A DNA stretch of 58,194 bases from a virus. The position numbers and the translations under genes were made by a program. The stretch is taken from the IMG/VR virus record IMGVR_UViG_3300009466_000003, positions 1-58,194 of that record. One strand, 5' to 3'. Below are positions 18,155 through 51,752 of this stretch, one piece after another. Positions within the stretch are counted from its first letter, which is position 1, and each line of letters opens with the position of its first letter. The notes under the pieces were generated by a model. That model did no database searches. It was not told the origin of the DNA and saw nothing but the letters and a program-made list of their open reading frames with translations.

Positions 18155-19242
18155 TGGCAAATGGCATTGCAACAGAGTATCCAAGAATGGCACCTTCTGA
18201 AATAGAAGCTATGGTTCAAGAGCGTGTTGGTGGTGGCGGAGGGATTGGACAAGATTTTCAATCTTGGCAGTATAATATCCCCGAAGGTGGAGGAACGGCA
18301 TACCCCAAAAGCCGCAGGCAGATGCGAATGGAGGCAGAATACCAGCAATATCAATTGAAAGAACTTGAACGCATGAAAGCGTTGCAAGCAATGGAAATGG
18401 CTGAAAAGCAATATGGTCTTCAGCTTGAACAAGAACAGAGGTTGCGAGAAAAACAACAGCTTGATCTTGACAGACAGGAAGAAGTTCAAAACCAAGCTCG
18501 CATGGCCATGGGCGCAATTCTGGGATCGGTTCAGCCTGATGGCCAAAGAACTAGGCCAATCAATATTAATGACGATGATGCCGTCGAAAGACTTCAATCT
18601 GTAATTTATTCCAACCAGCTTGGAATGGAGGATCAGGCTACCAAAGAAGCTGTTGTTGGAATGTTGAATGATGCTCTTCGTGTTCGTGAACGTAAACTGC
18701 AAACATCTCAAGAGCAGGAGTTGGCAGCATCAACACTTTCGGCGCAAACTGGAAAACCAATGAAAGAGTTTGGAGAGTATACGGCAGAAGGCATCTTTCG
18801 TCCCAATTTGAATGCCATTGTCAAAGCCAATGAAGAGTTAAAACAGAAAGAAGAAGCTGCTGCTGAAGAAAAAGAAGTAGCCAAAGAAACCCGAAGGGCG
18901 GAAGCAAGAGAGACTGTTGCCGAGAAAAAATCCAAAGAAACTCAAATTATCGGAATTGATAAAGAGTTGCGTAGGGAAGGTCTTGCTTTGGAAGAAGTTG
19001 CGGCAAATCTTGGATTGCAGCGTGACCAGTCTGGAAGGTTTAATATTGGCGGGCTTTCTGATACTCAGAAAAAAACATTTAGGGCGGCTGAGAATCGCGT
19101 TAGACTTTTGGAACAGGACAAGGCACAATTGCAGGGATTTATGTTTGACACAGAGGCAGATGCCCAAGCGGCAATTGAGGCCAAAAGAGTTCCAAAGGGA
19201 GCCATCATATTTATTAATGGCAAAAAAGCTATCAACCGATAA
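18154..19242 (+). CDS. Putative internal virion protein, coiled coil (362 aa)
   Basis: Most of residues ~55-115 and ~220-330 are Glu/Gln/Lys/Arg-rich heptads, likely long coiled coils. A C-terminal FINGKKAINR tail ends the protein. It shares one base (TAATG) with both neighbours and so is coupled between the Ala/Pro-rich protein and the giant polyvalent protein. Role inferred from position: structural core or ejection protein. Confidence 0.55.
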   Translation: MANGIATEYPRMAPSEIEAMVQERVGGGGGIGQDFQSWQYNIPEGGGTAYPKSRRQMRMEAEYQQYQLKELERMKALQAMEMAEKQYGLQLEQEQRLREKQQLDLDRQEEVQNQARMAMGAILGSVQPDGQRTRPININDDDAVERLQSVIYSNQLGMEDQATKEAVVGMLNDALRVRERKLQTSQEQELAASTLSAQTGKPMKEFGEYTAEGIFRPNLNAIVKANEELKQKEEAAAEEKEVAKETRRAEARETVAEKKSKETQIIGIDKELRREGLALEEVAANLGLQRDQSGRFNIGGLSDTQKKTFRAAENRVRLLEQDKAQLQGFMFDTEADAQAAIEAKRVPKGAIIFINGKKAINR

Positions 19243-22200
19243 TGCCGATAGAATATCTAGATGATATCGAAGAGGATATTACAGAAGCGGCGGACACTAC
19301 TCCCGTAGAGCAACCGCCCGTTGCTGGCGTTTCTGAGCCAGTCGCGCCAGAACCCTCTGGAGAATTTGGCGGAAGGATTGAATACATTGAAGAAGAGCCT
19401 CTAGAAATAGAGCCTCCTAGAGATAATAGCTGGGACACGCTCCGAGGTTTTGAGGTTTCGATGCGGCAAGTTCCGCAGTTGGCTTACGGGGTGGCGGGGT
19501 TGGTCGGTGAGACCGCAGAACAATTGACAGGCTATGGCGAATCGCTCCGAGACTGGGGGTTCCGTGGATACCAAGATTGGGCCGAAAGCATGGAGCCAAT
19601 CTCCAAGGAAACCGATGATGTTACGGTGGCATGGCAGAAAGCCAAAGAAGGAGATATCGGTGCGCTGGTTGATTGGGCGCAATACGGTATTGGTTATGCG
19701 CTAGGACAGCTTGGAGAAACGGCAGCTATTGCAGTCTTGGGCGGTATAGCTGGTGGTGCGGCGGGAGCGGCTGGTGGACCAACGGCAGTTCCAGCGGCGG
19801 CGGGCGGTGCTGTGGTGGCTGCGGCTGGAAAAACTGGATTTAAGGCTCTTGCCAAAAATCTTGTTGAGAAAGCCATCAGCGCACAAGCGAAAAATATTGT
19901 TAAAAAACAAGCTGCAAAAGAAGGAATTGAACTTACTGGTGAACAATTAGCCAAACGCGCACAGCAAGAGGCTATTAAGCGTCAGGCTGGCAGAGAGATT
20001 GGTTCTAATGCTGCCGTGTTTGCCAATGCCATCGGAATGCAACTTGGTGCCATCTACGGATCTGCCGAGGAAAAGGCCCGTGAGGAAGGGCGTGAACTTA
20101 CAGGATTGGACTTGGCTCGCATCTGGGGTAGCGGCATTGCCACGGGCGGACTGGAAGGTGTTGTTGATAAATTTGGATTGGATCTTTTGAAGGGTAAGTT
20201 TGCCGAAGCTCTTCCTGCTGGACGGCTGGCTGGTGCGGCGGTGGCTGGCCCGATTGGTCTTGTTGGCGAAGCGGCAACCGAAGCAGTTCAAACTGTTGGC
20301 GAGCGATTCGGCGCAGGCAGGGAACTTCTTAGCGACGAAGCTATCAACGAATATATCAATGCTTCTGCCTTGGGTGGTATTGGTGGCGGGGTTATTGGCG
20401 GTGCTGGCGGGTTTATCTCTGGCAACCCCAAGGAAAACGCCGCAGCCAAAGCCAAGGTATCTTCAGAGGCTAATAAGGACATCGCTCCCGCTACCGCCGA
20501 GACCGTAGCCAGACAAGCCGATGCCGTAATTGCTGAGACAGTCCAAGAAACTCCCGAACAGCGAGTAGCCCGCCTCCAAGAAGAATCTGCCGCAGCAGCA
20601 GGAATAGAACTAGAAGAAGAAGGGGAAGGCGGGGTTGAGCCGACAGTTCCCGTCACTCCTCCCGTAGCACCCACTCCCGAAGGCGCAGTAGCCCCTGTAG
20701 AGCCAGTTGTTACTCCAGAAGTAGCAGAGCCGCAGCCAGCCGCAGAAGTCGCGCCCACTTCAATTTCAGAATCTGAACAAATTAAAAACATTAAAGACAA
20801 GGGCGTCACCGCCATTCACTTTTCAAGGACTCCAATGCAACTTGAAAAAGGTGTAGATATTTCAAAAATTAAGGGCGCATATCCAGAGGAGTCTGTATTT
20901 GGTCGTGGGTTTTACGCAATGGAACCAGCAGATGAGTCTTCTTGGAGAAGTGCCAGTAGGTTTCAACTTGGAGACTATAGAAATGAAGTAAAATTATCTC
21001 CAAAAAACCCAATCATTATATCTCCAGACACAGTTAAAAAATACGGATATGATGAAATTAAAAATCGCGTTGATCAAGGTGGATACGATGCAATTATTGT
21101 TAGTGGCTGGAATCCCGAATACGATGCTGGCATAGAAAAAAGACTGAACGAGCTTTGGAGTCCAGTCTTTCCAGAAGGAAGGACAAGTGGACAATTTTTA
21201 AACACCAAAGAATATGATGCGGCAATAAGTAGAGCCACAGAAGAAATTACTGGTCTTTCAAGGAAAGACTATGAGGCGATAAGTAAAAGTGGATGGGATC
21301 AAAATCAAGTATTTATCCCACCAGATATTGCTTCTGACATTGTATCGAAGCCAGAAGTGACTCCTCCCGCCGAGGTTGCTCCCGAAGTGACCCCGAATCT
21401 TGAACCCCTACGCCGAGTAGCAAGAGCAGAACAAGCCCCAGAAGATATTCCCTCTTTGGTGGAGGCGGGGTTGGTCGAGGTGTATAAAGATCAACCTGTC
21501 ATTACGGAAGCGGGGATTGCCCAATTGCCCGAAGCAGAACGTCCAAGGCTGACGCCCGAAGCCCGAAAGATCCAAATCGACACAGGAGCAAACGAAGTAG
21601 TAGCCGAAGCCATCTCCAAGAATCTTCGTATCGGGGTCGATCAGGTGGGAGCCAATGTGCGTATGCCCGCAGGCTGGACACTGGTAGAGGATATCTATGT
21701 GCCGCCAGCCAAGCAGGAAGTAGCGAAAGCGGGACAACCAGAACAAGCAGTAACCCCGCCGACATTAAAAACAAAATATACAGACAACAATCTTGAAAAT
21801 GTTTCTTTTCCGCGCACATCTGGTCAACCCAATCAAGCAAGGCAAGCGTTGGAAGTTATTTCCAAAGGAAGTTCTCCGTATGCACAGTTGGCTCAAGAAA
21901 TTCTAAATGCTGCCAGCACCAATCCAGAAATAAGCTTCGCAATTAGCAATTCAAAATTTACCAGATCAACGCCAGCGCAAGACAGGGGAAGATTTAAAAA
22001 CAGATCTTTTTACGAGGCGGCATACAGGACAATAGCCATGAATCCCAATCAGGCTGGGGATACGCGAATTGCCGTCCATGAAATTATCCATGCCATCATC
22101 GCGCACAAACTTCCTAATCAAATATCATCAAGCAAACTCAAGGGTAAAAAATATAAAAATGTTTTAGACAAAGCAATCGCGGATAAGTCTTTGCCCAAAC

Positions 22201-25200
22201 CACTGCGCGACATAATTCGTGGATACATTCTTACCGTTGAAAAAATGGGCGCTGCTGAAACATTGTGGGGCACTGGCCCAGATGCTGGAACCACATCTCA
22301 AACACTTAATGTTTCAGTAAAATATCTTGGTGCGCCGATTGGGGCACAAACCAAGGCGCAAAGAGAGGGCGGCAGGTCATATAGAATCCAAAAGAAATCG
22401 AATGTTCAAAAGCTTCTAAGGTATCTAAAGGAAAACGGGATTACAGAGGTTGATGTTCGTCAAGGATCTTATGGAATTAGATCCAGAGGCGGGCAACCAT
22501 ACTATGATGTAATTATCGCAAATTCTGATCTTGAAAAGATCGCCGTTAATAAAAAGCAGCAGGGCAAGCATCCGTCATATTACGGAAACAAGGGATACGA
22601 TCCGACCAACAATGCTTTAACTTGGAACATAAAAAACAAAAAGTTCCCACTTGCCAATGATCCAGATGCAGTTGTCGAATACGGCTTTGAATACGGTCTT
22701 GGTAATATTGATGAGTTCCTTTCCGAAGCACTGAGCAATCCCGAATTCCAAAAAGTCCTCAACGAGATTGAGATGGAACAAGGAAAAACAATTTGGCAAA
22801 CAATTGTTGACGCCATCGCCCGAATCCTAGGTATCGAAGTGAAGGCGGGATCTGTGCTGGATGTGATATCCAGATCGGCATTTGAGTTGGCTACAGAAGG
22901 AGACCTTCTTCTGGCTGGAGGCCGAACCCCGTCCCCCGCCCCCGAAGTAAGAGAATCCCGCAGGGAACCCGCTCCCCTTACCCAACAAGACAGAGAGTAT
23001 CTGGATGCGGTGGAAAGAGGAGATTTGGATGCGGCGTCGAGGGTCGTGGATGCGGCGGCACAGGCTGCTGGAAATGTGACAACGGCTTATAGGTCAAACA
23101 CACAAACAACCACAGTATTCGACACAAAGAATCGGGCCGCTTGGTTCACCGATGATCTGACTGATGCCCAAGACTATGCATCTATCACAGACGTAGATCC
23201 CGAAACAGTAAGCAAATACTATCTCAACACCGACAACTTCGCGTCACTTGATGATCCGCAAATAGCCCGACAGATCAGAGATATCGTTCCGAACATGAAT
23301 GATCTGATGGCGGTGAGTGATGCTATGCCGCAAATCCGCCAACGACTTGGAGAAAGGTATGACGGCATCAAGGTGACCAGCTTTTCGATGGGCTATGAAA
23401 CGACCCACTACAATCCCTTCAAGCCCGAAAGAATCAAATCGGCAGACGCCGTAACCCGCGATGACCAAGGCAACATCATCCCTCCCAGCCAACGCTTCCA
23501 GCCCACAGAAGAAGATATAAGGTATTCCAGACGGGAGCCAGTCCTTCTAAAGAATCGCTTCTACTCACAGCTTGAGCGCACGGTTGCGGCAAAGATGCCA
23601 AACGTCTCGTCTCCCGAACAGCTTAAAGCCATCATCGATCCTTCTAGGGGAAGCGGGGTCAAGCCCGAAGAAATAAAATGGAGCGGTATCACCGAGGCCA
23701 TTGACCGCATTGCCGCCGAAAACAACGGGCGAGTCCCGAAAGAAGCCATCATCAAGTATATGCAGGATGAAGGCAATGTCCGCTTTGAAGAGGTAACTCT
23801 GGCGAGAAAGAAAGTTCCATATACTGGCGGGGAAATCAAGCGAATGCCCAACGGAACATACAAGTTGTCGTTCTTTGGATACGACAGCATGTATACAAAA
23901 CTAGAAGACGCTGAATCTGATCTCCAAAAAATGCGGGAAGGCGCGAGCAGAACAGAAGACGAGACTACTTATTCACAATATCAACTTCCTAATGGCGAAA
24001 ACTATCGTGAGGTTATATTGACAACGGCTTCTGGTGGTTCTTATCAAGATCCCCAAAGATTACGAGACCTATCTCGCGAAAGGCGCGGCATTCAGGAATC
24101 TGGAAGAATGCTTACCAGAGAAGAGTCGAACAGGATTACTGAAATAGACAAAGAAGTCAGAACTCTTGAAGATAGAATTGAGCAAGCAAAGTCTAAATAC
24201 AAATCTCCTCACTTTGCAAATATACCAAACTACGTTGCCCACATGCGTCTGAATGATCGCAAGGATGCAGAAGGAAAAGACGGAACATTTATTGAAGAAA
24301 TTCAATCAGATCTCCACCAAAAAGCCAGAGAGGTTGGATATAAAGACGAAGGCATTGTTCAGCAGAATTTTGTAAGCTGGTTGGCCGCAAACAAAAAAGA
24401 ACTTTCCGAACAAGAAATTCAAACACAATTTAAAACAAGGATTGGTGAGGAAATCCAGCAATGGACTAAAGACCAAGAAATCGCCGCAAAAAATGCCAGT
24501 GCCGTTCCAGATGCGCCGTTCCGCAAGGATTGGTCGCTGCAAATGTTTAAGAGGGCGTTGGAAGAGGCTGTTGCAAGCGGTAAAGATTGGATTGGATGGA
24601 CAACTGGGGATACGCAGGCGGCACGATATGATTTAAGCAAGCAAGCAAAGGCTGTTATCTATAACAAGAATCGAGATGGTTCATTCACTATTACGGTTAG
24701 AGATCTAAACGATGTAAACTCAAAAATAGGAGACTATTCTGCCGAGAAGTTGCCTGATGTTGTCGGCAAAGAGCTTGCGGAAAAAATCGTAAACGATCCA
24801 AACCCAAATGGAATCTTCGCTGGAAACGACCTAAAGATTGGCGGCGAGGGGATGAAAGGATTTTACGACAATATCCTTCCCAAAGAGATTGCCAAGTATG
24901 TCAAGAAGTGGGGCGCAACTGTTGAGAAGTCTGAGATATCGGCGGGCGTTGGTATTAATGCTTGGGTATTTTTAGATGATGATGGTGTGTTTAGAGTCAA
25001 AGATAGAAAAGACGGAAAAGACCCACAGGCTAAAACTTTGGGAGAATTTGATAATCAAACAGACGCCGAAGAATTTGCGCGTATGTATAAGGGGGAAAAT
25101 GTCCCAATCTGGCGCGTCAGCATCACTCCAGAGATGCGCCGAATCATCGAAGAAGAAGGACAGGCTTTATTCTCTCTACAGATGCCCAGCCGTATTGCTG

Positions 25201-28200
25201 GCATGGAACCCGAAGCAGTGACAACCAAGCTGGAGTCTTTGGGATTCGGGCGGGGTGGGATTGTATCAGTGGTCAACGAACCCGATGCCTCCTTTGAAGG
25301 CCGCACCATCATCCGAGACGGGAAAGTAGTAGGTATAGAGCTAAACGCCGCAGCCTTGAGAGACGATGCCGCTGTAGAGCGAGTCTTGAACCATGAGATT
25401 GCCGAATCCGCCAATGCCGATGGGGCGCTTAATCGTTTGGTGGCGGGGTTGACCCCGAAAGAAAGAAAAGAAATCAACGATGCCATCACTAGGTTGGGCT
25501 ACGCAGAGCGGGCTAGAACCGCCGAGGAAGCCGCCAGAGCCGTCGAATTACTAGCCGAGGGATGGAGGGGCAGACGCTGGTTTGAACGTGCTGTGGCGCG
25601 GATTGAGGCATGGGCCAACAAGCTGGGATACAAGCTCACCCGACGAGCCGCCGAATACATCGCCGCCCGCAACATGGCGGAAGTCAACGATAGCTTCAAA
25701 CAGGCATACAACAAATTTATCAATGTGCAGGGAGAGGCTAGGGAAGCGCGAGTTGGCGAGCAAGCTGTCGTTGATGCCGATATGGGCCGCAGATCGCAGA
25801 CCGAACTAACGCCACAAGAAATAGAACAACTAGAAAGCGGCGAGAAAATCCGAGTCTACAGGGCGATGCAAGTCATTGATGGAAAGCTGTATCCGCCGAT
25901 GTCCGCTTTGGTTGGCGGAAAACTCCGCAAGCCCACAGAAATTGGAACATGGGAAAAGGCCGAAGAGCGCCCAGACTTGCTGGATAAGCGGGGCAAATTC
26001 ATTCTTCAGAAGGGCAACAAAGCGACAGTCCCCGCAGCATACAACCCGTATTTCCACACATCTACCTCACCCCTAAATGATCAGTTTTCTTCGGCATACA
26101 AGAGAGACAATCTTGTCACGGTTGAAGTCGAGGTTCCCGCCAGCGAATTGACCAGTGGCTACAAAGCAGATGGCGCAAAGGATGCCGTGGGCGAAGTCCG
26201 CTGGAATGCTGGCCCCGTGAGCAGCAAGCTCCCCGCCGACAAGAAACGCAAAGTTATTCTTTCGCGCTACGCTAAGGTTGTCCGCATTGTTCCCGACAGC
26301 GAGGTTGCTGGAATCATCGCAAATCTTCTTGAGGGTACTAATCTTTCTATTCCAGAAAACACCGTCACCCCGTCACTAAAAGCTGAACTGGAAAAGCAGG
26401 GAATCAGCGTAACCCCGCGACCAGTAAGAGGTGAGGAGATCCGCGAATCCCGCAGAGAAGACGCCATCCCCACCTTCTCCGAGGGAAGCCCCGAAGCATC
26501 CACTCTATCTACTATGGCCTCATCTATGGCCAAGGTGGATGCGGCGTCCGAGGCCAAGCCAAACCCCGAAAACAAACCCACCTACAAGATCAGCGAGATA
26601 GCCTCTGTCTGGATGGATCAAGGGGGAGATGCCCGTCAACTCCAAGACATGGTGGTGGAGTATACCAACCTCACACCAGCCAATGCCAAGAAGGTAGCCA
26701 ATGCCATTGCCAAGCAATACGATATCCAGCAGTCGATTGCTACGGCATTTTTAGAAACTCCCGCTGGCATTTCGGTGGAAGCCCTACCCGAAGGTGTCAC
26801 GCTCCCGAAAGAGGTTGATCCTGATCGTCCGCGCCCCGTCATGCAGCGCCTCTTTGATGTGTTCATGGGAGTCAGGGTAAAACCCGTCAAGATTACTGGT
26901 GATGAAAAGGCATTGCTTAAAAGCCAGATCCGCCTCAAGGCCGCAGCCAATCGTGCGGCAAAGCAGGAGCAGCAACGCACCGCAGACGAGGTTGTTGAGA
27001 TTATCAAGTCCATGGAGCTTCGCGGCCCCGTCCGCCCAAAACAAGCACAGGCTCTAGCCAAACGCGCAGCCAAGGTGATCTGGACAAGCGAGAAATCCAT
27101 GGAGACCTTTGTCGAATACGCCGCCAAGGTGGTGGAGAACGCCAACTACGATGCGGATCTCCGCGAGGCCAAAGCGGCACAGAAACGCGCCAAGGAACTT
27201 TCCAAACAGAAGAAAGTCGCCATGAGTCCGCAGCGTCTAATCCTCCAACAGATTGGTAATGTCGCAGTTAATAAGCTGGATGATCCGCGCATGTTTGCCG
27301 AGATGATCAACTACTACTTGCGTGGATTCAAGGATGTGCGTTCTCCTGACTATGTGGTGGTTCCCGATGAAGAAATCACGGGCTACATATCTCAACTGGA
27401 AAACGAGTCCGTCACAGATCAAGCCGAGGTGGAGCGCGAGACCAACGAAAGGCTTGCCCGCAAATACGACCTTGATCCCAATACCATTCCAGAGTTGATG
27501 AGCCTTATCAACATCATCGAAGAGATTGAAGGCAGGGAGAACCGCGAAGCCTTGGAATCGATCCTTACTGACAAAGCCATCGAAACCCAAGACGGATTGC
27601 GCGGATATGACACAACCGCGCTTACTAACACTCAAAAGAAATTGGTTGAGTCAATGCTCAATGTAGATCTGAAGTCAATCAATACACAAGAGCGGCAAAT
27701 GTTTATCCGCATTGCCAACAATATGATTTACAACAATCAGACCAATGGCGCGGAATACTTTGTGGCTACGGCCAAGGGGCAAGAAAATGCTCGCAAGGCG
27801 GCAAGAGATTCCAAATTGATCCAACGCAACCAAGCTTGGATTCCGCTTATTCCTTCCTTTGGATCTTTGAAGCTGCAAGAAACCCTTCGCAACTTCTCTT
27901 TGGAATTGCAATCAGTGGCCGACACCTTCCGCAATGTATTCGGAAAAGACTTTATGGCCAAGGCTTACGAGATGATGGGGATGCTGGATCTGAATGAGGG
28001 ATTCACCAAAGCCAACAATACCATTGATGAAATCCAAGATCTGATGGCCGAATTTCACCAAGGCAACAAAAAGAAATATGGTGACGCAGCCCGCAACCAA
28101 GACGGCATTCTCTCCGAGGGTGTGGCTGGATTCTTGATCCAAGAATTCCCGTTCAAGGATGAGGCAACCTCAATTCAGCAACGCCGAAACCTGATCAATG

Positions 28201-30185
28201 AATACATCGCCAATGCCCGCGAATCCCGTCAGAAAGATCGTGTAGCCATGGCGGATCGCGTCGAAACCATCCTTAACAAAATCGATGGTGCTTCGGTTCA
28301 AGAGATCTTGAACAATATGAAGCGCGAATACCGCCCGAACTACGATTCACTCATGTGGTACAAGGATGTGCTGTTCCCTAAATACAAAGACTTCCTCAAA
28401 CAATTTGATGAGAACTTCAACGATCAGGCTAACAACTACGATAGCCCGAATTATCTTCCGATTGCCTTTACTTCGGCTGGCCCAGCCTTGGCTCTTACAA
28501 CAGAAGATGTGAGCATTGCCAACTCCATTTCTCTACAGCCCAAACAATCTGTCTACACTATCAAACGCCAAGATTACACCACACTTCCCAAAGACAGGGA
28601 TGGAAATCCTAAAGAAATTGAATTCAATCTTCGTCGCAACGCCTTCAACAGCTTGTCAGATCAGATCAATAAGGCTTACACCAACCCTTCTTGGCAGCAG
28701 ATCTTTGCGTTTATGAAGACTCCAGAATCTATTGAGTTCTTTGGAGACAAAGCTAACCGCGACTTCTTTGTGGATCGCCTCAATAGGTTGCGTGTTTCCA
28801 GAGCAAGGCGCGGATCTGTCAGTGGTGGGGGATTGGAAAAGGCACTTGATTCTTTAAGTATTATTTCCAGAAAACTTGGCACTGGCATTGCCCTTGGTGG
28901 CGCGTTCCAGTGGATCAAGCAGCCCCCAGACCAGCTTCTTACGGCTTTGGGTAGCGGTGGGCGAGGAGATCTTCTGGCTAAAAATATTGCGCCATCTACC
29001 CAGAAAGCGGCCAGAGAACTTCTGAATCTGTTTTCCATTGGACGCCGTGGAGATTCGTCTGCTGGTTACAAATACATCAACCAGATGGAAGGCCATCAAA
29101 GCCGCATGGAGCGTTACTTTAGTGAGAGCAAATGGGAGCAAGCCAAGGAACAGGGCGGGAAGATTGCCGATGTATGGATGGTGGCATTGAAGAAGTCCGA
29201 TTTCATTTCCGCTTCTGCTGCATGGATGACTTACTACGAAGGCGAACTAAACAAGAATGATATCAAGATTGATGACTGGGCCAAAGAAGCCGAGCTTGTC
29301 AAAACCGATCCCGTCAGGCGTCAAGCGGCGGCGTATGCCGAACAAATGACCGACATTTATCAGGGTTCAAGCGACCCGACATCCATGGCTACGTTTGCAC
29401 AAAGCGGTAAAACTGGTTGGGAAAACTTCGTCAAAGCTCTGTTGGTTCCATTCAACTCGTTCGCTGTCCAGCAACGTATGAGGCTTTACTCCGATGCCAG
29501 AGACGCACTCAACGGAACCAGTGGAGGCAAGGGTGGATTGGCTGGAACAATCGGCGGTCTCATCCTTTTTCATACCACGAAACGATTTGTCCTTCCTGTT
29601 ATTTCTGGCGGCACTGCCGCAGTCCTTTACGGAATGCTTGGCGTTGACATGGAAGAACCCGATGAAGAGAAGCAGAAAGAAATGGCTGATAGGAACTGGC
29701 GTCAGTTCTTGGCAGACATCACTGGTAACTTGCTGGTCGGCGGAACCCCGCAAATCGTTGAAAACAGGGTGATCGAATCTTTCAACTACGCTTCTTACAT
29801 GGTTGGTGTGCAGCTTGAGAGCGAAACGGTGATGGATGAAAACGGCGAGATCATGTCCTTTGACAAGTATTCCAAAGAGCGTTCTCCATTCTATCGCTAC
29901 AAGTCTTACGACAATGCCATGAGTCTTGGCATGTTTGAGATTGGATTTGATCAAGCCAAAGAGGCGGCGCTTCAAACCAAGATGCTCATGGATCGTGAAG
30001 AGATGGAGATGTATACGCCCGAAGAGCAGCGTCTCCTCTACTTCTCTGCACTTTCGGAGTGGCTGTATCTTATGCGCCTCAATGACACGGACTTCGCCCG
30101 TATCGTGAAGAAGGCCCGCCGCGACATGATCAAAGCAGCCGAAGAGCGCGAGAAAGAACTAGCCCGCATCCGCGCTGGACGCTAG
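19242..30185 (+). CDS. Giant polyvalent protein (3647 aa), likely ejected with the DNA
   Basis: One uninterrupted 10.9-kb frame. In order: acidic N-terminus; Gly/Ala-rich hydrophobic segments (~160-210, ~375-400) able to insert in membrane; an ADP-ribosyltransferase-like domain (AIHFSRT near 525, G-x-GFYAM); a zincin with HEIIH at 946-950 and a downstream EALSNPEFQ; an ART-PolyVal-like domain (from ~1250, AYRSNT near 1283, ending KSADAVTRDDQGNIIPPSQRF); a domain with EEIQSD (1685) and PF-x-x-W...FKRAL (~1759); a second zincin-like site HEIAE (2051); a YPPM...NPYFHTS...LNDQFSSA domain (from ~2204); then ~1300 mostly helical residues. This fits the polyvalent protein class delivered into the host to counter defences. 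Confidence 0.8.
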   Translation: MPIEYLDDIEEDITEAADTTPVEQPPVAGVSEPVAPEPSGEFGGRIEYIEEEPLEIEPPRDNSWDTLRGFEVSMRQVPQLAYGVAGLVGETAEQLTGYGESLRDWGFRGYQDWAESMEPISKETDDVTVAWQKAKEGDIGALVDWAQYGIGYALGQLGETAAIAVLGGIAGGAAGAAGGPTAVPAAAGGAVVAAAGKTGFKALAKNLVEKAISAQAKNIVKKQAAKEGIELTGEQLAKRAQQEAIKRQAGREIGSNAAVFANAIGMQLGAIYGSAEEKAREEGRELTGLDLARIWGSGIATGGLEGVVDKFGLDLLKGKFAEALPAGRLAGAAVAGPIGLVGEAATEAVQTVGERFGAGRELLSDEAINEYINASALGGIGGGVIGGAGGFISGNPKENAAAKAKVSSEANKDIAPATAETVARQADAVIAETVQETPEQRVARLQEESAAAAGIELEEEGEGGVEPTVPVTPPVAPTPEGAVAPVEPVVTPEVAEPQPAAEVAPTSISESEQIKNIKDKGVTAIHFSRTPMQLEKGVDISKIKGAYPEESVFGRGFYAMEPADESSWRSASRFQLGDYRNEVKLSPKNPIIISPDTVKKYGYDEIKNRVDQGGYDAIIVSGWNPEYDAGIEKRLNELWSPVFPEGRTSGQFLNTKEYDAAISRATEEITGLSRKDYEAISKSGWDQNQVFIPPDIASDIVSKPEVTPPAEVAPEVTPNLEPLRRVARAEQAPEDIPSLVEAGLVEVYKDQPVITEAGIAQLPEAERPRLTPEARKIQIDTGANEVVAEAISKNLRIGVDQVGANVRMPAGWTLVEDIYVPPAKQEVAKAGQPEQAVTPPTLKTKYTDNNLENVSFPRTSGQPNQARQALEVISKGSSPYAQLAQEILNAASTNPEISFAISNSKFTRSTPAQDRGRFKNRSFYEAAYRTIAMNPNQAGDTRIAVHEIIHAIIAHKLPNQISSSKLKGKKYKNVLDKAIADKSLPKPLRDIIRGYILTVEKMGAAETLWGTGPDAGTTSQTLNVSVKYLGAPIGAQTKAQREGGRSYRIQKKSNVQKLLRYLKENGITEVDVRQGSYGIRSRGGQPYYDVIIANSDLEKIAVNKKQQGKHPSYYGNKGYDPTNNALTWNIKNKKFPLANDPDAVVEYGFEYGLGNIDEFLSEALSNPEFQKVLNEIEMEQGKTIWQTIVDAIARILGIEVKAGSVLDVISRSAFELATEGDLLLAGGRTPSPAPEVRESRREPAPLTQQDREYLDAVERGDLDAASRVVDAAAQAAGNVTTAYRSNTQTTTVFDTKNRAAWFTDDLTDAQDYASITDVDPETVSKYYLNTDNFASLDDPQIARQIRDIVPNMNDLMAVSDAMPQIRQRLGERYDGIKVTSFSMGYETTHYNPFKPERIKSADAVTRDDQGNIIPPSQRFQPTEEDIRYSRREPVLLKNRFYSQLERTVAAKMPNVSSPEQLKAIIDPSRGSGVKPEEIKWSGITEAIDRIAAENNGRVPKEAIIKYMQDEGNVRFEEVTLARKKVPYTGGEIKRMPNGTYKLSFFGYDSMYTKLEDAESDLQKMREGASRTEDETTYSQYQLPNGENYREVILTTASGGSYQDPQRLRDLSRERRGIQESGRMLTREESNRITEIDKEVRTLEDRIEQAKSKYKSPHFANIPNYVAHMRLNDRKDAEGKDGTFIEEIQSDLHQKAREVGYKDEGIVQQNFVSWLAANKKELSEQEIQTQFKTRIGEEIQQWTKDQEIAAKNASAVPDAPFRKDWSLQMFKRALEEAVASGKDWIGWTTGDTQAARYDLSKQAKAVIYNKNRDGSFTITVRDLNDVNSKIGDYSAEKLPDVVGKELAEKIVNDPNPNGIFAGNDLKIGGEGMKGFYDNILPKEIAKYVKKWGATVEKSEISAGVGINAWVFLDDDGVFRVKDRKDGKDPQAKTLGEFDNQTDAEEFARMYKGENVPIWRVSITPEMRRIIEEEGQALFSLQMPSRIAGMEPEAVTTKLESLGFGRGGIVSVVNEPDASFEGRTIIRDGKVVGIELNAAALRDDAAVERVLNHEIAESANADGALNRLVAGLTPKERKEINDAITRLGYAERARTAEEAARAVELLAEGWRGRRWFERAVARIEAWANKLGYKLTRRAAEYIAARNMAEVNDSFKQAYNKFINVQGEAREARVGEQAVVDADMGRRSQTELTPQEIEQLESGEKIRVYRAMQVIDGKLYPPMSALVGGKLRKPTEIGTWEKAEERPDLLDKRGKFILQKGNKATVPAAYNPYFHTSTSPLNDQFSSAYKRDNLVTVEVEVPASELTSGYKADGAKDAVGEVRWNAGPVSSKLPADKKRKVILSRYAKVVRIVPDSEVAGIIANLLEGTNLSIPENTVTPSLKAELEKQGISVTPRPVRGEEIRESRREDAIPTFSEGSPEASTLSTMASSMAKVDAASEAKPNPENKPTYKISEIASVWMDQGGDARQLQDMVVEYTNLTPANAKKVANAIAKQYDIQQSIATAFLETPAGISVEALPEGVTLPKEVDPDRPRPVMQRLFDVFMGVRVKPVKITGDEKALLKSQIRLKAAANRAAKQEQQRTADEVVEIIKSMELRGPVRPKQAQALAKRAAKVIWTSEKSMETFVEYAAKVVENANYDADLREAKAAQKRAKELSKQKKVAMSPQRLILQQIGNVAVNKLDDPRMFAEMINYYLRGFKDVRSPDYVVVPDEEITGYISQLENESVTDQAEVERETNERLARKYDLDPNTIPELMSLINIIEEIEGRENREALESILTDKAIETQDGLRGYDTTALTNTQKKLVESMLNVDLKSINTQERQMFIRIANNMIYNNQTNGAEYFVATAKGQENARKAARDSKLIQRNQAWIPLIPSFGSLKLQETLRNFSLELQSVADTFRNVFGKDFMAKAYEMMGMLDLNEGFTKANNTIDEIQDLMAEFHQGNKKKYGDAARNQDGILSEGVAGFLIQEFPFKDEATSIQQRRNLINEYIANARESRQKDRVAMADRVETILNKIDGASVQEILNNMKREYRPNYDSLMWYKDVLFPKYKDFLKQFDENFNDQANNYDSPNYLPIAFTSAGPALALTTEDVSIANSISLQPKQSVYTIKRQDYTTLPKDRDGNPKEIEFNLRRNAFNSLSDQINKAYTNPSWQQIFAFMKTPESIEFFGDKANRDFFVDRLNRLRVSRARRGSVSGGGLEKALDSLSIISRKLGTGIALGGAFQWIKQPPDQLLTALGSGGRGDLLAKNIAPSTQKAARELLNLFSIGRRGDSSAGYKYINQMEGHQSRMERYFSESKWEQAKEQGGKIADVWMVALKKSDFISASAAWMTYYEGELNKNDIKIDDWAKEAELVKTDPVRRQAAAYAEQMTDIYQGSSDPTSMATFAQSGKTGWENFVKALLVPFNSFAVQQRMRLYSDARDALNGTSGGKGGLAGTIGGLILFHTTKRFVLPVISGGTAAVLYGMLGVDMEEPDEEKQKEMADRNWRQFLADITGNLLVGGTPQIVENRVIESFNYASYMVGVQLESETVMDENGEIMSFDKYSKERSPFYRYKSYDNAMSLGMFEIGFDQAKEAALQTKMLMDREEMEMYTPEEQRLLYFSALSEWLYLMRLNDTDFARIVKKARRDMIKAAEEREKELARIRAGR

Positions 30186-49687: not shown

Positions 49688-49860
49688 TGTTCAAGCAATA
49701 CTTCCTCTTTAAGTCTTTCGGCTTCGGCGTCTGGGGCCACACACATCATTAGTGCTTTGCGGGCTTTCTCCAGTTGGGCTTCTTTTTGTTCCAATAGTGC
49801 CTCCAAGATACCCGAAACAGGAGGGGGAGCCATTGTGCTATGGATGCGGCCCACAGTCAC
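49684..49860 (-). CDS. Small helical protein (58 aa)
   Basis: GTG start overlapping the HTH gene stop (GTGA). MTVGRIHSTMAPPPVSGILE, then a helix EALLEQKEAQLEKARKALMM. ATGA with the RusA-like gene. An internal ATG could shorten it by nine residues. Not recognised. Confidence 0.55.
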   Translation of the reverse strand: MTVGRIHSTMAPPPVSGILEALLEQKEAQLEKARKALMMCVAPDAEAERLKEEVLLEQ

Positions 49861-50165
49861 TTGATGATTCCCTCTTGGCGGGCGATGGCCTCAATCTGGC
49901 TCACATACTCGCGGGTGCAGTTGAATTGCTCGGCTACGGCAGCAAAGTTCATTTCGGGGTTGGCCATGAGATAGCCAAGGACTTTGAAAGCCCGACCTCC
50001 ATGCATGCGCCTCTTGGTAGTCTTCTTGCGCTTGGCCCGAATCCCATTCTTACGCAATGCCTGTGCCATGGCTCCGTATTTGACTCCATGCTTTTCGGCA
50101 AGTTCGCCAATGGTGATTTCGGGGTTTTGTTCGATTTCTTGTGGTAGTAAGGATGCTTTGATCAT
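49857..50165 (-). CDS. DNA-binding protein with two HTH-like segments (102 aa)
   Basis: N-terminal ITIGELAEKHGVKYGAMAQA (~17-36) and C-terminal MNFAAVAEQFNCTREYVSQIE (split as MNFAAVAEQF and NCTREYVSQIE, ~72-92) both look like helix-turn-helix units, joined by a very basic bridge RAKRKKTTKRR. Likely a sequence-specific regulator of this arm, close to the divergent control region. Confidence 0.65.
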   Translation of the reverse strand: MIKASLLPQEIEQNPEITIGELAEKHGVKYGAMAQALRKNGIRAKRKKTTKRRMHGGRAFKVLGYLMANPEMNFAAVAEQFNCTREYVSQIEAIARQEGIIK

Positions 50166-50209: not shown

Positions 50210-50500
50210 TCAAATAATATTATTGGAGAGGCGTGGAGACTTTCGTTTCCGCGCCTTTCGCGGTTTACGGGCCTTCCTCTGCTCCTTGTGGAACAATTTG
50301 TGGCACACCTTACATAGGCAGATCAGATCGTCCAAGTGGTTGAGTTCATCTCCTTGGTGTTCGTAGGTGCGGTGGTGGGCTTGGAGTTCCAGAGGGCTAT
50401 TGCATACCCCACATCTCCAGCCGTAGCGTTTCTTCACCAGTCGGCTTACTTCTTTCCAATAAGGCGTTCTCAAGTAGGATCTATAAGATTCTTTATCCAC
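50210..50500 (-). CDS. HNH endonuclease
   Basis: In this 96-residue protein CGVCNSPLELQAHHRTY (~30-46), then HLDDLICLCKVCHKLFH (~55-71) is the HNH fold with its two zinc CxxC pairs, the catalytic His (HH) and final His. Either a free-standing homing enzyme or a terminase-associated nick enzyme. First gene of the minus arm before the gene-free RNA region. Confidence 0.85.
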   Translation of the reverse strand: MDKESYRSYLRTPYWKEVSRLVKKRYGWRCGVCNSPLELQAHHRTYEHQGDELNHLDDLICLCKVCHKLFHKEQRKARKPRKARKRKSPRLSNNII

Positions 50501-50520
50501 AGAGAAATACTACTCTCTTG

Positions 50521-50549
50521 TTGACAGTGTGGCCACCCTTAGTTATTTT
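50521..50549 (+). promoter_or_regulatory. Candidate promoter for a small RNA
   Basis: TTGACA (50521-50526), 17-nt spacer, TATTTT (50544-50549). The best -35 in the region, pointing into the terminator-closed RNA at 50556. It starts 21 bp from the divergent HNH gene. Confidence 0.55.
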
Positions 50550-50555
50550 GGCGCA

Positions 50556-50629
50556 GGCGATTTGGGTGCGGTCTCTAGGAGCGGATGTTTCTATCAAGAC
50601 ATCAGTGAGGGGCCGCACCCTCTTTTTTT
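50556..50629 (+). ncRNA. Candidate terminator-closed small RNA
   Basis: GGGTGCGGTC (50564-50573) pairs with GGCCGCACCC (50611-50620), 10 bp including one T-G, then TCTTTTTTT. Inside, GATGT (50584-50588) pairs with ACATC (50599-50603). A promoter-like site 10-20 nt upstream makes a ~75-nt transcript plausible. No ORF. Confidence 0.55.
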
Positions 50630-50633
50630 GATA

Positions 50634-50662
50634 TTGACTTATTTTTGAACGCCTGATAGGTT
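50634..50662 (+). promoter_or_regulatory. Candidate promoter for the large structured RNA
   Basis: TTGACT (50634-50639), 17-nt spacer and TAGGTT (50657-50662). TATTGAC is shared with the two late-promoter sites. A TAGATT at 50676 offers an alternative -10, paired with a CTGATA that matches the TGAACGC motif at 12031. Confidence 0.42.
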
Positions 50663-51171
50663 GCCGTGGTCTTGATAGATTCAGACATCCGCTCACGGCG
50701 AGCTAGACATATTGTAGCCGAATCTCCAGCGCAGGTATGCAAGGGTCACACCGCCGAACGTTGGAATATCCGAACCAAGCCTCGCCCGCTTGGTAATCCA
50801 GAAATAGTCTGGTAAAGCGACAGGGACATGCCCTGTGGAGTGCATCGACGTTATTGGGTCATCAGAATGGCAGCCTCGGAGCCTAGACGTTGGTGGTAGG
50901 GCTGAAGCAACTCATCTCGGAGGGATGAATACTTCGACTTTTTACAAAACTCCTGCCCCGTAGCTGGGGCGGAGTGTGTGGAGGACATCGCAATCTATCT
51001 GGATGGATTAATCTCCGACTATGCGGCGTTCGGGCGAACTGCGTAAAGAAGCCGCTATACTAGGCGGGGCGCACGGCTTTAGCCCCGCCGAATATCCCCC
51101 CAAAGAAAAAAGAAGAAAAAAGATTGAACGCCCCGAAGGGGCTATGGTCTATTACTCCATGGACAATTTAA

Positions 51172-51237
51172 GGGGGAGACTAGGTTCGACGCGCAAAACC
51201 AAGCGCGGACTCGGCTGCAATGCCGACTCCTCCACCA
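51172..51237 (+). ncRNA. tRNA-like element resembling the tmRNA tRNA domain, with CCA
   Basis: 66 nt. Acceptor GGGGGAG (51172-51178) with CTCCTCC (51227-51233), 7 bp with a G-U at position 3-70 (the alanine identity pair also kept in tmRNA), then ACCA (A73-CCA). A T-arm TCGGC-TGCAAT-GCCGA (51211-51226) abuts the acceptor as in tRNA; its loop keeps T54, C56, A57 and A58 but has 6 nt. The D-like part has GG (51183-51184) in GGTTCGAC, the tmRNA 5' hallmark, with no D-stem. CGCGC/GCGCG (51190-51207) replaces the anticodon arm or tmRNA P2. No mRNA-like domain is seen, so it is not a normal tmRNA. Competing pairings with GGAGG (51242) exist. Confidence 0.55.
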
Positions 51238-51241
51238 ATTC

Positions 51242-51310
51242 GGAGGGGATCATTGAGGGCAAGATGAGTGTAAACTCCTTGAGCGACCTGAGTCCTCTCC
51301 CATTTTTTTT
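51242..51310 (+). terminator. Rho-independent terminator with a large loop
   Basis: GGAGGGGA (51242-51249) pairs with TCCTCTCC (51293-51300), 8 bp with one G-T, followed by CA and eight T. The loop contains GAGT-GTAA-ACTC, a stem with a GNRA-type tetraloop. It probably ends the long RNA. Confidence 0.65.
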
Positions 51311-51390
51311 GGAGGCGGGGAAGACCCGACTGCAAAGTCGAAAGCTTCAAAGGCTGGGGGGCTAATGAAGTTGCGCCACCTCGCCTCCAA
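51309..51390 (+). promoter_or_regulatory. Structured leader of the 117-aa gene
   Basis: TTGGAGGCG (51309-51317) pairs with CGCCTCCAA (51382-51390), 9 bp, and encloses CGACT-GCAA-AGTCG (51327-51340), a GNRA hairpin, and a GCTTCA/TGAAGT stem. It ends 8 nt before the start codon and shares two T with the preceding terminator, so the two structures compete. No Shine-Dalgarno lies between it and the ATG. It could be a translation switch. Confidence 0.5.
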
Positions 51391-51398
51391 TTCTCTTT

Positions 51399-51752
51399 AT
51401 GAATAGACAAGAAGCAATACAACTACAGATTGATGACATCCTTGACAGTTTCGATTTTCAGGCGGTTATGAAGTCATTGGAAGTCTATAAGTCCATGGAG
51501 CGGGGTTATCCGTCCGATTGGTTCCTAGATGATGAGCCGTTTGAACCCGCGATTCGGGCAGCGGCTCGCGATTGCATGAAAGCGGCCATCAAAGAGGGCT
51601 ATGCTGGTCATAGCTACTTTGAAGCCCGCTTTACTGAAGGAGAAGACGAAGAAGGCCCGTGGGTCAGAATCACTCTTAATTTCGGGCTTCATTCTTACAA
51701 TGACGGAGTATCTTATGAAAAAACTACTACTACTACCCCTGTTACTGAGTAA
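51399..51752 (+). CDS. Hypothetical protein (117 aa)
   Basis: MNRQEAIQLQIDDILDSFDF: a helical N-terminal region and a beta-rich C-terminal region (EEGPWVRITLNFGLHSYNDG) with a Thr-rich tail. First gene after the structured RNA region. The last 38 nt overlap the signal-peptide gene. Not recognised. Confidence 0.62.
   Translation: MNRQEAIQLQIDDILDSFDFQAVMKSLEVYKSMERGYPSDWFLDDEPFEPAIRAAARDCMKAAIKEGYAGHSYFEARFTEGEDEEGPWVRITLNFGLHSYNDGVSYEKTTTTTPVTE

Follow-up and report, generated by a model that had tools for sequence, protein, structure and literature searches.

A conserved phage locus of predicted small RNA genes carries a probable tmRNA tRNA-like domain without a tag reading frame

Analysis of a 58,194-nucleotide stretch of viral DNA (IMG/VR record IMGVR_UViG_3300009466_000003, positions 1 to 58,194; hereafter the window) revealed a conserved group of candidate small RNA genes that, judged by its sequence, is organized in three plus-strand transcription units. 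The third unit carries a 66-nt element that is almost certainly the tRNA-like domain of a tmRNA, with the message part lost (a CDS-less tmRNA, or mini-tmRNA). By analogy with a published precedent, we propose with a probability of roughly 60% that this RNA acts as a decoy inhibiting host trans-translation. Coordinates are those of the window, and features lie on its plus strand unless stated otherwise.

The locus spans 50501-51398, an interval of 898 bp without a credible gene. Its left border is a small HNH endonuclease gene on the minus strand (50210..50500; PHROGs HNH matches down to 1e-9, supported by synteny), and its right border is a plus-strand ORF of 117 aa (51399..51752) assigned to no family. 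The left neighbour of the HNH gene encodes a small helix-turn-helix (HTH) protein (49857..50165, minus strand; Pfam HTH_24, 9e-7) and keeps its position in relatives. The order HTH, HNH, RNA region, small ORFs, and DnaB is common to many IMG/VR contigs, and DnaB identity is 65-100% among those with the syntenic locus. The complete interval between the HNH gene and the downstream ORF is present in 24 compared sequences, the window's own included; partial copies occur in further contigs, and more distant ones were added by pattern scans. In some relatives, the HTH and HNH genes are separated by a tRNA-Met gene (L016:2098-2171, L037:3247-3321, L044:3408-3483, and L003:1849-1924).

The plus-strand RNA of 50668-51310 has a predicted folding energy of -232.3 kcal/mol, compared with -211.2 +/- 7.7 kcal/mol for shuffled sequences (z -2.7; 0 of 20 shuffles as low), and the helices of the locus covary well above controls in which pairing partners were slid. 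This conservation and covariation is more than chance. An earlier note on this DNA had described a gene-free, structured region matching no family and had staked that description on conservation and covariation in relatives; the gap, the structure, and both kinds of comparative support were all found, and no Rfam family reached its gathering threshold in the window. A nucleotide search of phage records returned no match, and no close cultured relative of the window phage was found. Elsewhere, the plus strand holds a single ORF of 3647 codons (19242-30185).

The tRNA-like element lies at 51172..51237. It was identified with a model, R1, built from ten cellular tmRNA tRNA-like domains only, all from genomes of one phylum (that of a Bacteroidetes MAG). 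R1 joins the two tmRNA halves by an artificial AAAA linker and uses alignment A2, since the MAFFT alignment A1 misplaced the 5' acceptor. In the 58 kb window, R1 returned this element as its single match (46.5 bits, E=1.5e-8), a score to which the linker, matched by the window element, added some bits; the L009 element, without a linker match, scored 41.1 bits. Applied to 689 kb of related phages from 52 sources, R1 matched only at the same site, in 13 other loci. The stems of the domain covary, with a score of 0.70 compared with 0.05-0.11 for slid partners.

The predicted fold consists of a 7-bp acceptor, GGGGGAG/CTCCTCC with G3:U70 (51172-51178/51227-51233), a P2 helix read from the sequence as 5 bp closed by an 8-nt loop (51190-51194/51203-51207), a T arm whose 5-bp stem abuts the acceptor (51211-51226), and a 3' ACCA formed by A73 and an encoded CCA (51234-51237). 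The element also carries GGUUCGAC, and GGAC before the T arm. The alanine signals, G3:U70 and A73 on a 7-bp acceptor, are kept, and G3:U70 is present in 31 of 31 sequences of alignment A4. Like the tmRNAs of Rfam RF00023, the element combines a G3:U70 acceptor, GG-UUCGAC, GGAC before a T arm that abuts the acceptor, and CCA. Unlike them, it has no message-like domain: a tag reading frame and pseudoknots between the tRNA halves are absent, and it is no full tmRNA by the RF00023 definition, scoring below the gathering threshold that many viral relatives pass. In gathering and relaxed Rfam scans of the window, nothing credible appeared except weak tmRNA echoes (tmRNA_permuted, 14.6 bits; alpha_tmRNA, 13.4 bits). 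Matches to suhB and HCV were rejected as chance, and ARAGORN reported neither a tRNA nor a tmRNA in the window. The tRNA-like element that the earlier note had claimed is present but belongs to tmRNA rather than to a tRNA.

Two features of the window element depart from the usual form. Its T-loop is a 6-nt UGCAAU instead of the canonical 7-nt UUCRANY, which is usual rather than defining, and its D region lacks one base relative to tmRNA. The elements of L080 and L081 keep GGAUUCGAC, and their T-loops read UUCGAU and UUCGAUC, respectively. These canonical features suggest that the window form is derived.

Elements of this kind form a wider viral class. A first scan took a short-P2 tRNA-like domain as its pattern, with the 5' GGGG fixed and U70 free, and yielded about 38 further viral contigs; a looser scan fixed neither G3:U70 nor A73. 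Once filtered for a 7-bp acceptor and for a T stem, the two scans together gave at least 134 viral elements, at least 102 of them distinct and mostly 76-79 nt long. Among the elements listed, both G3:U70 and A73 occur in 134 of 134. Nearly all of the loci scanned with Rfam exceed the threshold of its tmRNA model, with scores of 54-81 bits. In the cultured Streptomyces phages LuckySocke and BRock, an unannotated 81-nt CDS-less tmRNA that passes this model lies inside tRNA arrays, and BLAST found similar sequences in GiJojo, pSt2308, Alone3, and Shaeky. The GiJojo match (PP725410.1, 17030-17103) overlaps gene 44, a "hypothetical protein" that is possibly misannotated. BLAST matches to the 3' end of tmRNA in Pseudomonas, Synechococcus, Gordonia, and Caulobacter phages had scores far below those of mini-tmRNAs and were excluded from the count. 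A pistol self-cleaving ribozyme (Rfam RF02679, 51-52 bits) was observed about 100-200 nt upstream of a mini-tmRNA on the same strand (L190:6093-6154, L206:11838-11899, and L202:706-767); it could release the mini-tmRNA.

The kind of molecule appears to be known from one phage. Mycobacteriophage DS6A is listed as "TLD only" (PMC4131195), and its ssrA (Mao et al. 2009, as described in PMC4131195 and PMC11915505) is likewise a phage tmRNA tRNA-like domain without a tag frame. Set against those descriptions alone, the window element differs in its 66-nt length with shortened D region and T-loop, in its occurrence in uncultured, mostly aquatic phages, and in its setting, a phage-type promoter and a slot shared with other RNA inserts. 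A full-text search of literature accessible without subscription found no other report of CDS-less phage tmRNAs. The window element therefore appears to be a shortened form found in a new context; that the class is this broad also appears to be new.

Upstream of the mini-tmRNA, the locus contains two further candidate transcription units. The first begins at P1, a sigma-70-like promoter (TTGACA-17-TATTTT, 50521..50549) recognized from its sequence and from relatives, in which -35/-10-like hexamers are kept (TATTCT, TACTCT). Its predicted product, sRNA1 (approximately 50556-50629, with the start placed from P1), consists of a terminator hairpin, GGGTGCGG...CCGCACCC followed by T7, with a variable loop (fold z -3.4). 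The second begins at P2 (TTGACT-17-TAGGTT, 50634..50662), also supported by relatives. Its spacer contains TTTGAACG at 50644-50651, which is kept even in distant relatives without TTGACT. In L080 and L081, the region upstream of RNA2 has an inverted repeat, CGTTCAAA...TTTGAACG, around the RNA2 promoter, possibly an operator. P2 would drive RNA2, a conserved structured RNA (approximately 50669..51110, with the start placed from P2); no terminator was seen in the sequence after it.

The loop of sRNA1 varies among phages and is predicted to pair with the RNA2 5' end, and loop and target change together. In the window, the target site (50666..50695) covers approximately the first 27 nt of RNA2, and its duplex with the loop has a predicted energy of -35.8 kcal/mol, compared with -13.1 +/- 3.0 kcal/mol for shuffled targets. 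Over 16 loop/target pairs, cognate combinations averaged -33.3 kcal/mol and non-cognate ones -22.1 kcal/mol; 0 of 20000 permutations were as good, a test that overstates the number of independent events since some of the pairs are closely related, so that the safer figure is at least seven distinct specificities by our grouping of the pairs. Three further loci, L109, L112, and L113, have matched pairs at the same offset. The antisense partner was not detectable in the distant relatives L080, L081, L084, L091, L116, and L121, which keep RNA2. On this sequence evidence, sRNA1 is likely a short antisense RNA against the RNA2 5' end.

RNA2 itself is best described, from its alignment, as a putative new family of structured non-coding RNA with strong covariation; it matched no Rfam family. 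The RNAalifold consensus of 26 sequences has 42 pairs, 20 of them with changes on both sides, and 107 double-change cells compared with 5-22 when partners were slid. Its consensus energy is -39.4 kcal/mol, compared with -9.8 +/- 3.5 kcal/mol for shuffled columns. The invariant blocks include ATCCG, CGGAGC, GCCCC...GGGGCG, and AGGTATGCAAGG, the invariance of the last being partly by construction since it served as the search pattern for many loci. A search of genome contigs with the RNA2 pattern gave two matches, approximately the chance number expected from the information content of the pattern, and both were rejected: one shares the pattern stretch only, and the other has no similarity beyond the pattern. 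The matches of a second RNA2 pattern scan were a mixture of known loci and unverified ones and did not enter the analysis.

The pairing of sRNA1 with RNA2 recalls ColE1, in which RNA I and RNA II set copy number and incompatibility. RNA2 and sRNA1 could by the same logic form an RNA-based replication origin, with RNA2 initiating or priming and sRNA1 setting copy number and incompatibility, a function that could coexist with a decoy role of the mini-tmRNA and that we regard as possible but doubtful. As in ColE1, a short RNA is matched by complementarity to the 5' part of a long structured one, and the specificities, here at least seven, are diversified and matched. The divergent gene junction of the phage lies about 3 kb from a DnaB helicase gene. 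Mycobacteriophages provide examples of RNA-based prophage origins with incompatibility, in which a non-coding RNA is needed for phage replication (PMC7157519). In ColE1, however, the antisense gene lies opposite its target and overlaps it, whereas the sRNA1 gene is upstream on the same strand, and unlike in either system there is no sign of priming: no RNA-DNA transition site was identified. The phage also has its own DnaG-type primase and DnaB, and the six distant relatives named above retain RNA2 without a detectable antisense partner.

Taken together, we propose the following scheme. Transcription from P1 would produce sRNA1, antisense to the RNA2 5' end, and transcription from P2 would produce RNA2. 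P3, a phage-type promoter (TTGAAC-17-GTCTAT, 51124..51152) and the only exact match to its motif in the window, would start the third unit, comprising the 66-nt mini-tmRNA and then a terminator. The mini-tmRNA would probably be trimmed like a tRNA; its CCA is encoded, and its 5' end lies about 13 nt from the presumed start. Alanyl-tRNA synthetase would recognize it via G3:U70, and it would bind SmpB and/or EF-Tu, titrating SmpB; no SmpB gene is encoded in the window. A stalled ribosome would be offered no tag reading frame, so that the RNA would behave as a decoy and host trans-translation would be inhibited, presumably to the benefit of the phage. The derived D region and 6-nt T-loop could weaken SmpB, EF-Tu, or modification contacts.

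The decoy interpretation is preferred because of precedent and because the alanine signal is conserved without a tag. A molecule similar to that of DS6A strongly inhibits tmRNA whether chargeable or not, perhaps by titrating SmpB (PMC4131195; repeated in PMC11915505). The element could instead be a working rescue RNA without tagging, or it could serve processing or stability within the downstream gene's leader; we judge this alternative unlikely. Rescue without tagging has been proposed for tag-less mitochondrial tmRNA; such tmRNAs persist together with SmpB in some mitochondria, and tag-less forms also occur in two plastids (PMC11915505). In L009, L012, and L016, moreover, the element continues into the downstream leader with no long U-run in between. 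In the window, however, the element has a terminator of its own behind it. In E. coli, an RNA limited to the TLD was inhibitory to tmRNA (PMC4131195, PMC11915505), and ribosome recycling by the tmRNA route is impossible without a stop codon.

In relatives, the position after P3 behaves as a slot that holds the tRNA-like element, a BC element, one of several longer elements, or an HNH endonuclease ORF, or that is empty up to a conserved three-way junction. The tRNA-like element is an optional part, since it occupies only 8 of 37 distinct P3 slots. In the window, it is followed by the BC element (51241..51310), in which CAUUGAGGG...AGCGACCUGA lie between covarying stems and which ends in U8 and here looks like a terminator, and then by the three-way-junction leader element before the downstream gene (51311..51388, fold z -3.75). 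Both are well supported by covariation: the BC element, in 22 distinct relatives, has 98.1% of cells paired and 99 double-change cells compared with 13-27 in slid controls, and the three-way junction, in 47 distinct sequences, has 99.6% paired and 32 double-change cells compared with 0-4.

Outside the RNA-module context, relatives carry the P3 motif at 38 sites, with an ATG 3-13 nt downstream in 84%, compared with 17.6% of random positions, as expected for a phage promoter with very short leaders. The motif TTGAAC-17-GTCTA with an ATG a few bases downstream is found at many genes in related phages, for example at L095:3378 and L103:7713. This arrangement suggests leaderless phage transcripts under an ECF-like promoter. 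A hairpin at 51130-51143, considered with the A-rich region as an RNA element, was rejected because the spacing of TTGAAC-17-GTCTA is constant and the spacer sequence is not. The stretch after P3 might encode a protein from a leaderless start codon, with the hairpins as by-products: an ATG lies 7-9 nt downstream of P3, as at real genes, and in many relatives it opens a frame across the inserts, up to 250 codons long. In L032, the P3 ATG begins not RNA inserts but an HNH endonuclease (L032:3965-4378) that weakly matches the AP2 domain, and in L110 it begins a similar HNH endonuclease-like ORF. We nevertheless consider a coding function for this stretch very unlikely, as frame length and register vary widely (0 to 250 codons), L080 and L091 keep the RNA elements without the ATG, indels are not multiples of three, and stem changes are compensatory.

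The earlier note had likened the region, flanked by a promoter and a terminator, to the setting of giant phage ornate RNAs such as GOLLD and ROOL. The length, the many helices, and a tRNA-like element in a phage speak for a single giant RNA of that type, and GOLLD and ROOL (PMC12286853) are likewise large structured non-coding RNAs of phages or mobile elements. They share no sequence or structure match with the window, however, and neither appeared on the stretch even at E up to 5. The idea was dropped, and is now highly improbable, because internal promoters and module exchange were found: a terminator (50620-50629) and P3 lie inside the region, relatives show independent gain and loss of modules, and at least three transcription units are likely. 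Several components named by the note are present, but their arrangement differs. Promoter and terminator both exist, yet they delimit two promoter units plus P3 rather than one unit; the A-rich "linker" (51107..51123) sits directly upstream of P3, where it is A-rich in nearly all relatives and may be an UP element; and the U8 terminator, T8 at 51303-51310, ends the short unit that begins at P3. Although phages commonly use ssrA for attachment and prophages contain pieces of it (PMC9004378), it is exceedingly improbable that the element is a relic left by integration at the host ssrA gene, since 3'-end integration would not yield both halves of the domain with a closed short P2 helix and since the covarying stems indicate that selection maintains the element.

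As a wider and more tentative proposal, CDS-less tmRNAs may be a widespread viral weapon against trans-translation. In this family they would be one among several exchangeable RNA inserts, each of which may mimic a host RNA, in a dedicated expression slot downstream of the new antisense-controlled RNA2. Nearly all bacteria rescue ribosomes with tmRNA, and to our knowledge the reasons why phages would interfere with it have been little explored. The more than 100 viral mini-tmRNAs, all with the alanine signal and some in cultured Streptomyces phages, make this question directly testable. The locus also yields RNA2, a candidate new family of structured RNAs, and its naturally diversified antisense specificities could be used to test incompatibility or superinfection control.
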